NCBI GenBank assembly: GCA_003557485.1 | Contig: PWOI01000030.1 | Coordinates: forward strand, 1-7,716 | Direction of reading: 5' to 3' | DNA length: 7,716 nucleotides | DNA from: Elusimicrobiota bacterium | GTDB lineage: Bacteria; CG03; SLGR01; PWQF01 | Shown: piece after piece, positions 1 through 6,864 of the stretch | How the letters are laid out: each line of letters opens with the position of its first letter | Position numbering within the stretch: the first letter of the stretch is position 1 | Program-made: the position numbers and the translations under genes | Notes under the pieces: generated by a model | The model's input: the letters and a program-made list of their open reading frames with translations, nothing else | Told to the model about the DNA's origin: nothing | The model's database searches: none

Positions 1-280
1 AACCTATACCGCCGCGGTTTTCTCTTACGCGGCATGCACCTCTCCGGCCTTCTGCAAGCTCACACTCTTTAGGACAGAGAACACATTTAACTTTTCCGGA
101 ACCCAATGTGCGGAACCATTCTGAACGCTTTGCTTTTATAAGCCCTTTGCTGGCGCCGGGAATTGAGTCCTGAAGCGCCCGGCATACACCAGTCCCCAAA
201 ACACCTGCTGCAAAAGCTGCACCGCAGGCGCCGGCGGCGTATTTTATAAAATTGCGTCTTTCAAATTTTTTTTCTGCCAT
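1..280 (-). CDS. AmmeMemoRadiSam-type radical SAM protein with twin-arginine-like leader (partial, N-terminal 93 residues)
   Basis: The frame opens with ATG at 280-278 and runs open to the window edge, so only the N-terminus is present. An AAGGG ribosome-binding site sits a few bases upstream of the ATG. The first part reads MAEKKFERRNFIKYAAGACG, followed by an alanine/glycine-rich stretch: RRNFIK then a weakly hydrophobic segment, which looks like a Tat signal. After it comes a cysteine-rich block with CVLCPKEC, ELAEGRRGAC and RVRENRGG. This pattern (Cys-x2-Cys-x3-Cys, then Cys before VREN) is the N-terminal signature of the PflA-like AmrS family (COG1180), annotated as the radical SAM member of the AmmeMemoRadiSam system, whose biochemical role is unknown. 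The CX3CX2C motif that binds the catalytic iron-sulfur cluster would lie beyond the edge and is not seen. The gene overlaps the 3' end of the preceding spermidine-synthase-like gene by 37 bases, suggesting coupled expression. Family fairly confident; export is inference. Confidence 0.8.
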   Translation of the reverse strand, partial: MAEKKFERRNFIKYAAGACGAAFAAGVLGTGVCRALQDSIPGASKGLIKAKRSEWFRTLGSGKVKCVLCPKECELAEGRRGACRVRENRGGIG

Positions 281-2679
281 ATTACCCTTACTATTAATAT
301 TAATAAAAAAGCTGCAACTCCCGCAAACATAGCCAGGAAACAACAGGTCGCTATACCCATAACCGGAGCTATAAAAACGCTAGCTGCCAGAGCTCCGATA
401 CAGGCTCCCATAAGCTCAATTCCGTAAACATATCCTGCAGATTTTTCCGCACTTGTTCCTGTGATTAAAAGGCATTCGGCAGCCAGAGGAAAATCCATTC
501 CATTTACAAGGCCTGCCGTAAATGTAAACAGAGCAAAAAGTATAAAAACCGCACCTGGATAGCGCATTCCTCCTGCTTCCGGAAGCAGAAATGCAAGAAG
601 CCCTGCCAGAATAGCTATAAGAAGCTGGAGACTAGCCAGTGTACTAAGATTTGATTTATCTTTTATATACCTGTTAGAAATATACGTACCAAACGAAAGA
701 CCGAACATAAAAAGGGCTATTATCAGGCCAACTGTTTCATATACAAATCCGTATATGCTCTGAAAAGAAAAAATAAGGGCTATCTGAAGCATCATAGTAG
801 AAAAGCCGGTTGTAAAGACCGCAAAAAGAACAGAAAATCTGACCGGCGCTTCGGAATCCTCCCGTTTCGGATAAATCCGCATAAGAATAAGGATCAGGAA
901 CGGGAGAAGAGTAAAAGGCAAAAACCGGTTAAAGTTTACTTCCTGAAGTAACTTAAAAGTCTGGGTTTTCCCGGCTCGGGTAAGCTGTTCCCAGAACATC
1001 AGCGTGTAATAATATCCTATAGGCCTGAAATCGGAGTTTATGAAAAAACGCTCCGAAACAGAAGGAAGGCGTTTTTCTTCCTCAATCTGTTTTTCTAAAG
1101 TAGGGGGCATAACAGGACCGGGCCTGGGCCCTTCAATATGAGCATCAGGGCTGCGGCCGTGGTTCCGGAGAACCCAGTTTACCCTTCGGATTTGAGAGTC
1201 CTGCAGAAATGAATAGAAATATGCCCCTGAAAAACCTTTTGTGCGGATCCCGCGGCTCGAAAATCTCTCAGAGAGCTCTGATGCATCAACTGTTATTTCT
1301 CCTTTTTCATCTGAAGCTATAAAAAACATAAACCGCTCGCCGGCCGCAAGAACCTGGGGGAAAACACTCTTTAGGGTGTGGTATATTGCAGTATTACGGT
1401 TTGCTATTGCTCTGCCTCTAAGGTCTGGAGTTGATACCACCCCGGTAACCAGTACCCCGCCCGGATTCAACACTCTGCTTATCTCACTGAAAAACTCTTC
1501 TGTATAAAAACGGTTAAGCACGGCAGTAGCAGGATCCGGAAAGTCTACTATAACCATATCATATGAATTCCGAAGGGTTTTTATAAAAAGCCGGCCGTCA
1601 GCGTGTATCAGGTTGACATCTTCACGTTGAAGCGTATCAAAAGTAGAACGTGAAACATAAGGCAGGGCAGCATCTGTAAGAACCCTGTCCAGCTCCAAAT
1701 AATCAATTCTTTCAACGGGATAAAGGGCCAGCTGGCTTAATATTCCTCGCAGTCCGCCGCCTACCAGAAGAACTCTTACCGGGTTTTGGTGCTGCATCAT
1801 TGACAGATGAGTAAAAAGAAATGCATCCTGTTCTTCCAGGTCAGAGAGTATTTTATCGGGGCCTGCCGTACTGAATACAAGGTGCCCGCTCTGAAAGAAA
1901 CTGTACTGGCCATGAAGCTCTGCTACAGAAACAGTTCCGTGTTTTGAATTACGAACTTCAACGAGCCTGTGATTGGGCGCAAAGTTGTTCCACTGCAGAG
2001 CGTAACCCCATTCATCCACACTTCTCAAAAGAAAGAATCCCACTGCAAATAGAGGCAAAAGAAGAAGCATACGGCGGCTCATAATAAATGCTGCCCCGGC
2101 CATTAATGTTCCTGCAAGAAAAGCGGACTGAAGAGGAGTAAGATAATGAACCATCAGGAAGGTAAAAAGAACGCCTCCGATCATATTTCCGGCGGCCTCT
2201 CCCATATAAGTGAAACCTGCTCCGGAAGTGTCATTTACCCCTTTTTTCTTTCTTCTTATTTTTGCAAGTACAACAAACTGAACTCCAAGAAGGATGCAGA
2301 CAGGCGCTGCAACAATAAAACACGATAAAAGTATATCGTAAAGAGAAAGGTATGCACCTGGAATAATATCAAAAAAACCCCTCAACGTTCTTATAACCAG
2401 TATCGTAGCAGGAAGAAAAACAACTATTCCCGCAGCGCTGAATTTAAATAAAACCTCAGGATTCGGAAACCGGTCGGAAACAAATCCCCCAATAAAGCTT
2501 CCTGCCGCTACCCAGACCATCCAGGCGGCAAGTATTATTCCTATTGTAAGTTCATTCCCCTGAAAGGCCATAAGAAACTCACGCAGAATGAGTACCTGTC
2601 CGACCTGGGAAACAAATCCCAGTAACAGAACCGACAAAGCGCTGCCCGGGATTGTTTTATTTTTTATTTTTCTCTGCAC
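244..2679 (-). CDS. Membrane-embedded spermidine synthase-like protein (transmembrane / aminopropyltransferase domain / transmembrane)
   Basis: This 811-residue protein has hydrophobic membrane segments at about residues 11-220, a soluble Rossmann-type spermidine-synthase domain at about 240-460, a soluble extension to about 585, and a second membrane block at about 586-800. In the enzyme domain VLLVGGG (303-309) matches the SAM/dcSAM-binding loop, LELD (328-331) the acidic ribose-binding strand, HADGR (359-363) the adenine-binding turn and VDFPDP (378-383) the catalytic Asp loop. Canonical soluble SpeE has GGGDG and DSSDP there; this one has GGGLR and DFPDP. Substitutions of this kind occur in the fused MFS/spermidine synthase group, so polyamine synthesis is not assured. 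The start is a GTG at 2679-2677; the next in-frame upstream stop lies eight codons before it and the first internal Met is residue 37. No Shine-Dalgarno is visible, and the first 16 bases overlap the end of the upstream metallopeptidase gene, so re-initiation is likely. Substrate unknown. Confidence 0.88.
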   Translation of the reverse strand: MQRKIKNKTIPGSALSVLLLGFVSQVGQVLILREFLMAFQGNELTIGIILAAWMVWVAAGSFIGGFVSDRFPNPEVLFKFSAAGIVVFLPATILVIRTLRGFFDIIPGAYLSLYDILLSCFIVAAPVCILLGVQFVVLAKIRRKKKGVNDTSGAGFTYMGEAAGNMIGGVLFTFLMVHYLTPLQSAFLAGTLMAGAAFIMSRRMLLLLPLFAVGFFLLRSVDEWGYALQWNNFAPNHRLVEVRNSKHGTVSVAELHGQYSFFQSGHLVFSTAGPDKILSDLEEQDAFLFTHLSMMQHQNPVRVLLVGGGLRGILSQLALYPVERIDYLELDRVLTDAALPYVSRSTFDTLQREDVNLIHADGRLFIKTLRNSYDMVIVDFPDPATAVLNRFYTEEFFSEISRVLNPGGVLVTGVVSTPDLRGRAIANRNTAIYHTLKSVFPQVLAAGERFMFFIASDEKGEITVDASELSERFSSRGIRTKGFSGAYFYSFLQDSQIRRVNWVLRNHGRSPDAHIEGPRPGPVMPPTLEKQIEEEKRLPSVSERFFINSDFRPIGYYYTLMFWEQLTRAGKTQTFKLLQEVNFNRFLPFTLLPFLILILMRIYPKREDSEAPVRFSVLFAVFTTGFSTMMLQIALIFSFQSIYGFVYETVGLIIALFMFGLSFGTYISNRYIKDKSNLSTLASLQLLIAILAGLLAFLLPEAGGMRYPGAVFILFALFTFTAGLVNGMDFPLAAECLLITGTSAEKSAGYVYGIELMGACIGALAASVFIAPVMGIATCCFLAMFAGVAAFLLILIVRVIWQKKNLKDAIL

Positions 2680-3233
2680 TTTTGATGGATAATAAACCAG
2701 TATTTAAAAAGCCCTTCTTCGTATCTTTTGTAATCACCGTACCTTTCCCTGACTATATCCCAGTACTTTTCATTATGTTTTTTTTCAATCAGGTGAGTCA
2801 ATTCGTGGTGCACAATGTATTCTATAAATTCTTCGGGAAGCATTCGGGCGTAGCTGTTTACGGTCATATTTTTTTTATGGCTCATACTAGCCCAGTTGGT
2901 GGTCATCTTTTTGACAAGTATCTTATTTACACAGAGGTTCATTTCGCCGGAAAGAATCGACACTTTTTCAACGAGCAGAGCCTTAAATTCCTTAAGAGTC
3001 CTTTTCCCGTATAGTTTCATATCGCTGCTGCTTTTAAGGGCATTCTCTATTTTTATATAATTATTATATATCCACCTATCGTGTTTTTTTATTACTTTTT
3101 TTTCATCTTTCATTTTAAGCGGAAGCACAACATGAAGCTGGCAGGTCTTGAACTCAAACCGGACATTTTTTACTTTTCTCCAGCTTGTTTTATAGGGGAT
3201 GAGTTTATCTTTTATTCTTATTGTCTTATTCAT
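2664..3233 (-). CDS. YgjP/DUF45-type (M48-like) metal-dependent hydrolase
   Basis: This 189-residue soluble protein carries HELTH at residues 143-147 and a further His at 153 (HELTHLIEKKH), the HExxHx5H zinc-binding layout of the YgjP / DUF45 (WLM-related) metallopeptidase-like family. The flanking text, PEEFIEYIVHHELTHL before and HNEKYWDIV after, fits the family well. Family members usually have R-W-G-S-C about 25-30 residues before the zinc motif; here the equivalent is N-W-A-S-M (113-117), so the Arg and Cys are missing. Physiological substrates of the family are poorly known. The start is ATG 3233-3231 with AGGA just upstream. The gene is rich in lysine codons and visibly more AT-rich than its neighbours. 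It follows the PurL-like gene after 73 bases and its last 16 bases overlap the GTG start of the membrane spermidine-synthase-like gene. Confidence 0.87.
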   Translation of the reverse strand: MNKTIRIKDKLIPYKTSWRKVKNVRFEFKTCQLHVVLPLKMKDEKKVIKKHDRWIYNNYIKIENALKSSSDMKLYGKRTLKEFKALLVEKVSILSGEMNLCVNKILVKKMTTNWASMSHKKNMTVNSYARMLPEEFIEYIVHHELTHLIEKKHNEKYWDIVRERYGDYKRYEEGLFKYWFIIHQKCREK

Positions 3234-5147: not shown

Positions 5148-5222
5148 TGGAGCGGGCGATGGGATTCGAACCCACGTCGTCCAGCTTGGGAAGCTGACAT
5201 TCTACCCCTGAATTACGCCCGC
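5148..5222 (-). tRNA. tRNA-Gly (anticodon CCC)
   Basis: The complement of these 75 bases folds as tRNA-Gly: acceptor GCGGGCG with CGCCCGC, D-stem ATTC/GAAT, anticodon stem TCAGC/GCTGG (outer T-G pair) with loop TTCCCAA, T-stem GTGGG/CCCAT (one G-T pair) with loop TTCGAAT, discriminator T and encoded CCA. Positions 34-36 are CCC, decoding GGG. The sequence closely resembles the Escherichia coli tRNA-Gly(CCC) as I recall it. Its first base, G1 at 5222, is also the last base of the merR stop codon TAG. Confidence 0.95.
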
Positions 5223-5581
5223 TATATCTCTCTTTCGAGAAGATCCTTTATGTCTGAAAGATCTTTTTTTATTTCCTTCAGCGTATCACTGTCTATCGTT
5301 GAATTAAAAAAAGGCATCTCTGTCTGCGCGGGCTGATTTCTTTCCTTCAACAGATGCTTTTTCGCTCCGGCGATACTGTATTTATCCTCATAAAGCAGCT
5401 TTTTTATTTTTTCAACAGTCTTCAGGTCAGCTGAAGTGTACCTCCTCTGGCCGCTTTCCCTTTTGAGGGGCCTGAGAAGATTAAATTCATCTTCCCAGTA
5501 CCTAAGCGTATGAGGAGGAACCTCTGTTATATTAGAAACTTCACCTATAGTCAAATATTTTTTTTTAGTGTAATCTGTCAT
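5222..5581 (-). CDS. Small MerR-family transcriptional regulator
   Basis: This 119-residue protein has a MerR-type winged helix-turn-helix at about 9-77: YLTIGEVSNITEVPPHTLRY, then WEDEFNLLRP and the wing residues SGQRRYTSADL. The C-terminal part (about 98-118) is a short charged helix likely to pair two subunits, and there is no effector-binding domain or cysteine set of the metal-sensing type. The regulated target cannot be read from the sequence. Small regulators of this type are commonly found beside HU/IHF genes in Deltaproteobacteria, which fits here. The start ATG 5581-5579 lies inside the HU/IHF gene (17-base overlap) and no purine-rich ribosome-binding site precedes it, so translation probably depends on ribosomes arriving from the HU frame. 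The stop codon TAG (5224-5222) shares its last base with tRNA-Gly. Confidence 0.9.
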   Translation of the reverse strand: MTDYTKKKYLTIGEVSNITEVPPHTLRYWEDEFNLLRPLKRESGQRRYTSADLKTVEKIKKLLYEDKYSIAGAKKHLLKERNQPAQTEMPFFNSTIDSDTLKEIKKDLSDIKDLLEREI

Positions 5582-5834
5582 TGAGCTTTGGAGAAGGAGT
5601 AAATTTCACCCTCTTTTTCGGGGGAATAATCATTTCCTCTCCTGTAGCGGGATTTCTTCCTTTCTTCGCCTTTCGCACTACTACGGAAAAAGAACCAAAA
5701 TCCGAAATTGTAACTCGTTATCCCCTTTCAAGAGCGTTTTTTACAGTATCTATAAATTCATTTACCGCATCTTTCGCTTCCTGCTCGGCACAGGTAACAT
5801 TCGCTACTTCAGTTATTATATCGGTTTTATTCAT
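5565..5834 (-). pseudogene. HU/IHF-family DNA-binding protein gene interrupted by an in-frame TAA (codon 39)
   Basis: Starting at ATG 5834-5832, codons 1-38 read MNKTDIITEVANVTC...ALERG, then TAA at 5720-5718, and codons 40-89 continue in the same frame: RVTISDFGSFSVVVRKAKKG, RNPATGEEMIIPP, KKRVKFTPSPKL, stop TAA at 5567-5565. Read through, this is 89 residues, the normal HU/IHF length (about 90), with the helical body, the FGSF strand, the DNA-binding arm GRNPATGEE and the terminal FTPSPKL all present. The stop replaces exactly one residue, usually Glu, Asp or Lys (ALxxG-E-xVxI), and TAA is one change from GAA, AAA or CAA. Nothing else is decayed. It could be a recent nonsense mutation, a read or assembly error, or a recoded stop; a 38-residue product alone would lack the DNA-binding arm. 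The gene starts four bases after gpsA ends and overlaps merR by 17 bases. Confidence 0.88.
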
Positions 5835-5838
5835 ATTT

Positions 5839-6864
5839 TCAACCTCCCTCCGGATATTCGCTTTTCAGCGGTCTTGTCATCAGCTCGCCGGTTGCTTCTG
5901 CCGGATTCTTTCCCCTGTAGAGAACATCATAAACTTTTTTGCAGACCGGCATTGGGACATCATATTTACTTGAAAGTTTTACGCAGCTTCTAACCGTATA
6001 AATACCTTCTGCAGTTGTCCCGACTTTTTTCTCTGCCTCGGAAAAACTCATTCCTTCGCCTATAAATTTACCGAAACGGTAATTCCTTGAATGCATTGAA
6101 AAGCAGGTAACGATAAGGTCTCCTATTCCGGAAAGGCCGTTAAAAGTCTTGTGTCTTGCTCCCATTTTTATACCCAGCTGTTTTATCTCACTGTTTCCGC
6201 GCGTAATTAAGGCTGCACGCGTATTGTCACCCAACCCGAGGCCTGCCGTAATGCCTGATGCAACGGCAATAACGTTTTTAAGAGCACCACCCAGTTCAAC
6301 GCCTTTAATGTCATCGGAAGTGTAGACCCTGAAATAGTCCGTAAAGAAAAGCTCCTGAACCTGGCGGGCTGTTTTCGGGTTAGAAGACGCGGCGACTATT
6401 GCAGTCGGCATTCTTTTAATTACTTCCTCAGCGTGACTGGGACCCGAGAGAACAGAAATATGAAAACCTTTTCCAAGTTCTTCTCGCAATATTTCAGTTG
6501 GCCTTTTGAGTGAAGCATAATCAAACCCCTTTACAGCGGATATTATAAGCCTGGGAACTGATTCCTTTATTTTTTTAATTTTTTCCACTGTTTTTTTAAA
6601 TGCCTTTGACGGAATAGCAATAACTAAAAAATCCGCTCCCTCAATAGTTGTTTTTAGGGAGGAGCTGATTTCTATTTCTCCCGGAATAATAAAATTTTTA
6701 AGCGGAGGGAAAATTCTTTTTTTATCAAGTATTTTACTTTGCCGGGAATCAAATTCCCACATACGAACCTCATTGCCTTTGCAGTGAAGCAGATAAGCAA
6801 GGGTAATCCCCCAGCTTCCGGCACCTAAAACCGCTATTTTAAACCGATCTTTTTTCTTTGCCAT
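5839..6864 (-). CDS. gpsA: Glycerol-3-phosphate dehydrogenase [NAD(P)+]
   Basis: GpsA reduces dihydroxyacetone phosphate to sn-glycerol-3-phosphate, the backbone for phospholipids, in the cytoplasm. The 341-residue product has the family length. Visible motifs are the dinucleotide-binding GAGSWG (14-19) in AVLGAGSWG, VKG (111-113), GPSHAEEV (141-148), GALKNVIAVASG (193-204) with the catalytic Lys at 196, GDNTRAALITRG (212-223), NGLSGIGDLIVTC (242-254) and RPLKSE (331-336). The start ATG 6864-6862 lies inside the end of plsY (26-base overlap) with no clear Shine-Dalgarno, so coupling to plsY translation is likely; the next enzyme in the pathway, PlsY, uses its product. Stop TGA is four bases before the HU/IHF start. 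Confidence 0.97.
   Translation of the reverse strand: MAKKKDRFKIAVLGAGSWGITLAYLLHCKGNEVRMWEFDSRQSKILDKKRIFPPLKNFIIPGEIEISSSLKTTIEGADFLVIAIPSKAFKKTVEKIKKIKESVPRLIISAVKGFDYASLKRPTEILREELGKGFHISVLSGPSHAEEVIKRMPTAIVAASSNPKTARQVQELFFTDYFRVYTSDDIKGVELGGALKNVIAVASGITAGLGLGDNTRAALITRGNSEIKQLGIKMGARHKTFNGLSGIGDLIVTCFSMHSRNYRFGKFIGEGMSFSEAEKKVGTTAEGIYTVRSCVKLSSKYDVPMPVCKKVYDVLYRGKNPAEATGELMTRPLKSEYPEGG
5843..5851 (-). promoter_or_regulatory. Strong ribosome-binding site of the HU/IHF gene
   Basis: GGAGGGAGG on the minus strand ends eight bases before ATG 5834-5832. It is the best Shine-Dalgarno sequence in the window and lies in the last codons of gpsA. Its strength fits the abundance usual for nucleoid proteins and argues that the HU/IHF gene is, or recently was, well translated. 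Confidence 0.8.

Follow-up and report, generated by a model that had tools for sequence, protein, structure and literature searches.

A single in-frame TAA in the probably only native HU gene of an Elusimicrobiota draft genome

Why should an otherwise well-kept gene for HU, a nucleoid protein, carry a stop codon in the middle of its reading frame? We addressed this question for a 7,716-nucleotide window of Elusimicrobiota DNA. The window spans a whole contig of a draft genome (212 contigs, 86.6% complete) that was assembled from environmental DNA and belongs to an uncultured bacterium. Positions 5834-5565 of its minus strand form one HU gene, whose translation runs for 38 residues, meets a TAA, continues for 50 residues, and ends at a second TAA. 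The features of the locus are as follows:

5222-5581, minus strand: merR-like gene, intact, its start overlapping the 3' end of HU (sequence and relatives' loci)
5565-5834, minus strand: gene of the HU/IHF family with 89 codons and a terminal TAA, broken at codon 39 (matches PF00216 at 2.3e-29 when the stop is read as X)
5565-5717, minus strand: codons 40-89, encoding the conserved beta core and DNA-binding arm, behind the stop (PF00216 positions 41-89, 1.2e-17)
5718-5720, minus strand: premature in-frame TAA at codon 39, next base C (translation; sense codon in all aligned relatives)
5721-5834, minus strand: codons 1-38, N-terminal helical part, which is all that would be translated under complete termination (PF00216 positions 1-39, 1.1e-5)
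5839-6864, minus strand: gpsA, upstream neighbor, intact (gpsA neighbor in 12 of 12 related loci)

In a profile search, the whole frame with X at the stop matches PF00216 (Bac_DNA_binding; cut-off 22.4 bits) with 101.9 bits over profile positions 1-89, core and arm included. The 38- and 50-residue pieces each also match the profile alone, in adjoining stretches, which excludes chance; the claim of the initial annotation that both halves encode HU/IHF sequence in one frame is thus borne out, as is its identification of C as the base after the stop. The part of the gene beyond residue 39 encodes the peptide VTISDFGSFSVVVR. With its full-length match across the stop and its probable single-copy status, the gene resembles other members of the PF00216 family and the single HU of Streptococcus pneumoniae, which is essential and the only nucleoid protein known in that species (PMC5890176), but its frame is interrupted at codon 39.

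The surroundings of the gene are undisturbed. In all 12 related loci checked, gpsA precedes HU and a merR-like gene follows it, the standard setting of HU in the phylum. As previously described, the ribosome-binding region is intact and so is the overlap with the start of merR; the former is almost identical to its counterpart in the sister genome G001. No other gene of the window is disrupted. DNA similarity to the G001 locus ends at position 2686, and the content of window positions 1-2686 (a spermidine-synthase-like membrane protein and a TAT-signal protein) is absent beside the G001 HU gene.

Comparison with relatives, a check that the initial annotation had proposed, found HU intact at the same locus, with a sense codon at position 39 in every aligned sequence. 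The same-genus comparison comprises one genome, G001, whose HU protein is 88% identical and has GAG (Glu) at codon 39. Among 32 aligned homologues, which include those of 11 further gpsA-HU-merR loci of the phylum, codon 39 is never a stop; it encodes Glu in 19 and Asp in 4, in keeping with the earlier statement that the family usually has Glu, Asp or Lys here, and the residues found overall are E, D, K, N, G, R and I. The prevailing GAA and GAG codons lie one substitution from a stop. The TAA differs at two bases from the codon of G001, which means that one change, if not both, was probably an ordinary substitution. Internal stops flagged in the HU matches of two other genomes (G013 and G051) proved to lie at gene ends rather than mid-gene. 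A GpsA search of genome contigs returned no second strain, only distant relatives at 38-41%.

Purifying selection acted on this gene until very recently. Compared with G001, the whole gene shows a dN of 0.058 and a dS of 0.54, a ratio near 0.1, and a level of constraint about equal to that of the neighboring genes. The codons behind the stop carry 15 synonymous and 3 nonsynonymous differences, the latter all conservative (I/V, R/K and H/Y), so a stop that abolishes function must be either recent or not real. No second disabling lesion was seen, and the gene shows none of the relaxed selection or further lesions of a decayed pseudogene. When all three nonsynonymous changes are placed on the species' own branch, the 95% Poisson limit confines a neutral period to at most about 20-25% of that branch (114.5 nonsynonymous sites; 0.28-0.34 synonymous changes per site), a rough figure given the few synonymous sites and branches left unpolarized by outgroups that are too distant. 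By this rough bound, a function-abolishing stop would be younger than about a quarter of the branch. The selection pattern would be the same under a stop that is read through, and the test therefore does not separate a recent stop from readthrough.

A search for another HU copy, also suggested earlier, did find one, on contig C167, but its composition is foreign and the copy is probably not native. The tetranucleotide usage of C167 correlates with that of the genome at only 0.17, compared to 0.82-0.98 for 31 of 34 sampled contigs, the window included. Its other genes encode a prephenate dehydratase, a Nudix protein and a ParE-like toxin with a small partner gene. C167 is probably either a foreign island or contamination introduced by binning, and we rejected its HU as a native backup on the basis of its composition. 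This leaves the interrupted gene as probably the sole native HU found, in a genome of which about 13% is missing; most members of the order have a single HU of the window's type. A long-lived null allele in a gene that is probably the only native HU is unlikely. The contigs with deviant tetranucleotide usage were L037 (C167), L056 (C11; 0.19) and L075 (C205; 0.35), all likely to stem from binning contamination or mobile islands.

A recent event at one codon is enough to account for all of these findings: the frame is conserved on both sides of codon 39 and the relatives are intact. The event is most likely of an ordinary kind rather than a new mechanism. It resembles an ordinary nonsense allele, a young pseudogene or a consensus error in a metagenome-assembled genome in having one stop in a conserved frame, an intact orthologue in the nearest relative and no further decay, and differs from the usual case in that the gene hit is probably the single native HU. 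On what caused the stop, and how it changes the level of HU, we infer the following. We put first the reading in which a single codon is affected in an otherwise functional gene and the TAA arose as an error of consensus or base calling, or else came into the assembly from a minority strain; the reasons are that there is probably no other native HU and that selection on the gene is not relaxed. We lean slightly towards this reading, by which the TAA would not be the prevailing sequence of the population, where HU would be made normally from an intact gene. Several points count against it, the two-base difference from the G001 codon being one. The same genome shows no internal stop in 100 matches to ABC, radical-SAM and response-regulator domains, indicating that the assembly is not generally error-prone. 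In addition, some bacteria can do without HU (hupAB mutants of E. coli are viable despite poor growth), which makes a real null possible.

Such a null, a very recent nonsense mutation fixed in the lineage, is a serious contender that we rate somewhat below an even chance. It would leave a 38-residue fragment with neither core nor arm, with HU lost or made only at a background readthrough level and decay just starting. The stop does stand in the assembled sequence, in a clean context with no other assembly oddity; two genomes of the same phylum, G003 (88% complete) and G010 (91% complete), gave no HU match with the window protein, so loss may be tolerated; and with the genome incomplete, another HU may have been missed. 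These points have to be set against the lack of relaxed selection among the 3 nonsynonymous and 15 synonymous differences behind the stop, the probable status of the gene as the only native HU, and the lack of general gene decay in the domain matches. If the stop is fixed, there are two outcomes for the bacterium: life without HU, or translation past a UAA in its sole HU gene.

The second of these outcomes, in which a real stop is misread by a near-cognate tRNA in a weak context and enough HU is made, whether as a tolerated leaky allele or as a programmed device, is improbable. Still more doubtful is its stronger form, in which ribosomes regularly pass the UAA-C of the sole HU gene and termination holds the main nucleoid protein at a reduced level. 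Readthrough would be suited by the weak termination context of UAA followed by C, by the several residues tolerated at position 39, by the selection preserved behind the stop, and by the probable lack of any other HU; a recent origin accounts for the conservation equally well. Moreover, neither the sister nor any aligned relative has the stop, which argues against a conserved device. RNA structure downstream of the stop is no better than that of shuffled sequences (z = 0.39; 128 of 200 shuffles fold as well), and we rejected a stimulatory hairpin on this basis, although such structures are not obligatory at all readthrough sites. A suppressor tRNA was likewise rejected, since no tRNA with the UAA-reading UUA anticodon is among the 40 found, an incomplete set from which tRNAs such as those for Tyr and Ile are also missing. 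Our literature search on bacterial readthrough found nothing specific. Nor does restarted translation offer a way past the stop: no ATG, GTG or TTG follows it closely, and the next in-frame ATG is codon 68. Thus, of the three causes named in the initial annotation, a recent mutation and a read error fit all findings, while programmed readthrough, which is unlikely, gains no support from the sense codon in the sister, the downstream RNA, the tRNA set or the domain matches.

The least probable explanation, that this organism reads UAA wholly or in part as a sense codon, has in its favor the lone in-frame TAA of the HU gene and nothing else, and is excluded for practical purposes by TAA being the commonest terminator (47 of 93 coding segments sampled), by the stop-free domain matches, by two intact peptide release factor genes, and by the lack of a UAA reader among the 40 tRNAs found. 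The earlier view that the code is not reassigned therefore holds, and TAA is, as was also noted then, the normal terminator of the nearby plsY, der and metallopeptidase-like (YgjP-like) genes, as well as of HU itself. In-frame, non-terminating TAA codons in many conserved genes, the mark of a reassigned stop, were not found among the 100 domain matches.

Returning to the preferred reading of an assembly error or minority allele, the locus advises caution wherever a metagenome-derived draft genome shows a lone stop. Were readthrough true instead, a chromosomal gene for an abundant and often essential protein would be living with a leaky nonsense codon. Genes of Salmonella enterica annotated as broken, the "pseudo-pseudogenes" of Feng et al. 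in 2022, reportedly still give protein in low amounts; a leaky HU allele would fall into the same category, provided that the stop is real.

Searches for other broken genes gave little. A codon-usage scan of 252 kb, of low sensitivity in that it missed the HU case itself, returned three candidates, all resembling adjacent separate genes. A sampled G000-G001 comparison had too little overlap and flagged mostly antisense or upstream frames; in one rplF-like match from it, the "stop" precedes the start codon. In the sister genome, one TAG is reported inside a response-regulator domain match (G001:C49:7477-7815).

The tRNA survey also identified a tRNA-Leu with anticodon AAG at L065:4616-4701 (G000:C100), and at L137, L138, L139 and L141. 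A34 is unusual in bacterial tRNA-Leu, and its presence here would suggest a widened TadA-type inosine modification. This tRNA is kept in several genomes of the order, in most of which it adjoins tRNA-Cys and tRNA-Val; G005 has GAG instead.
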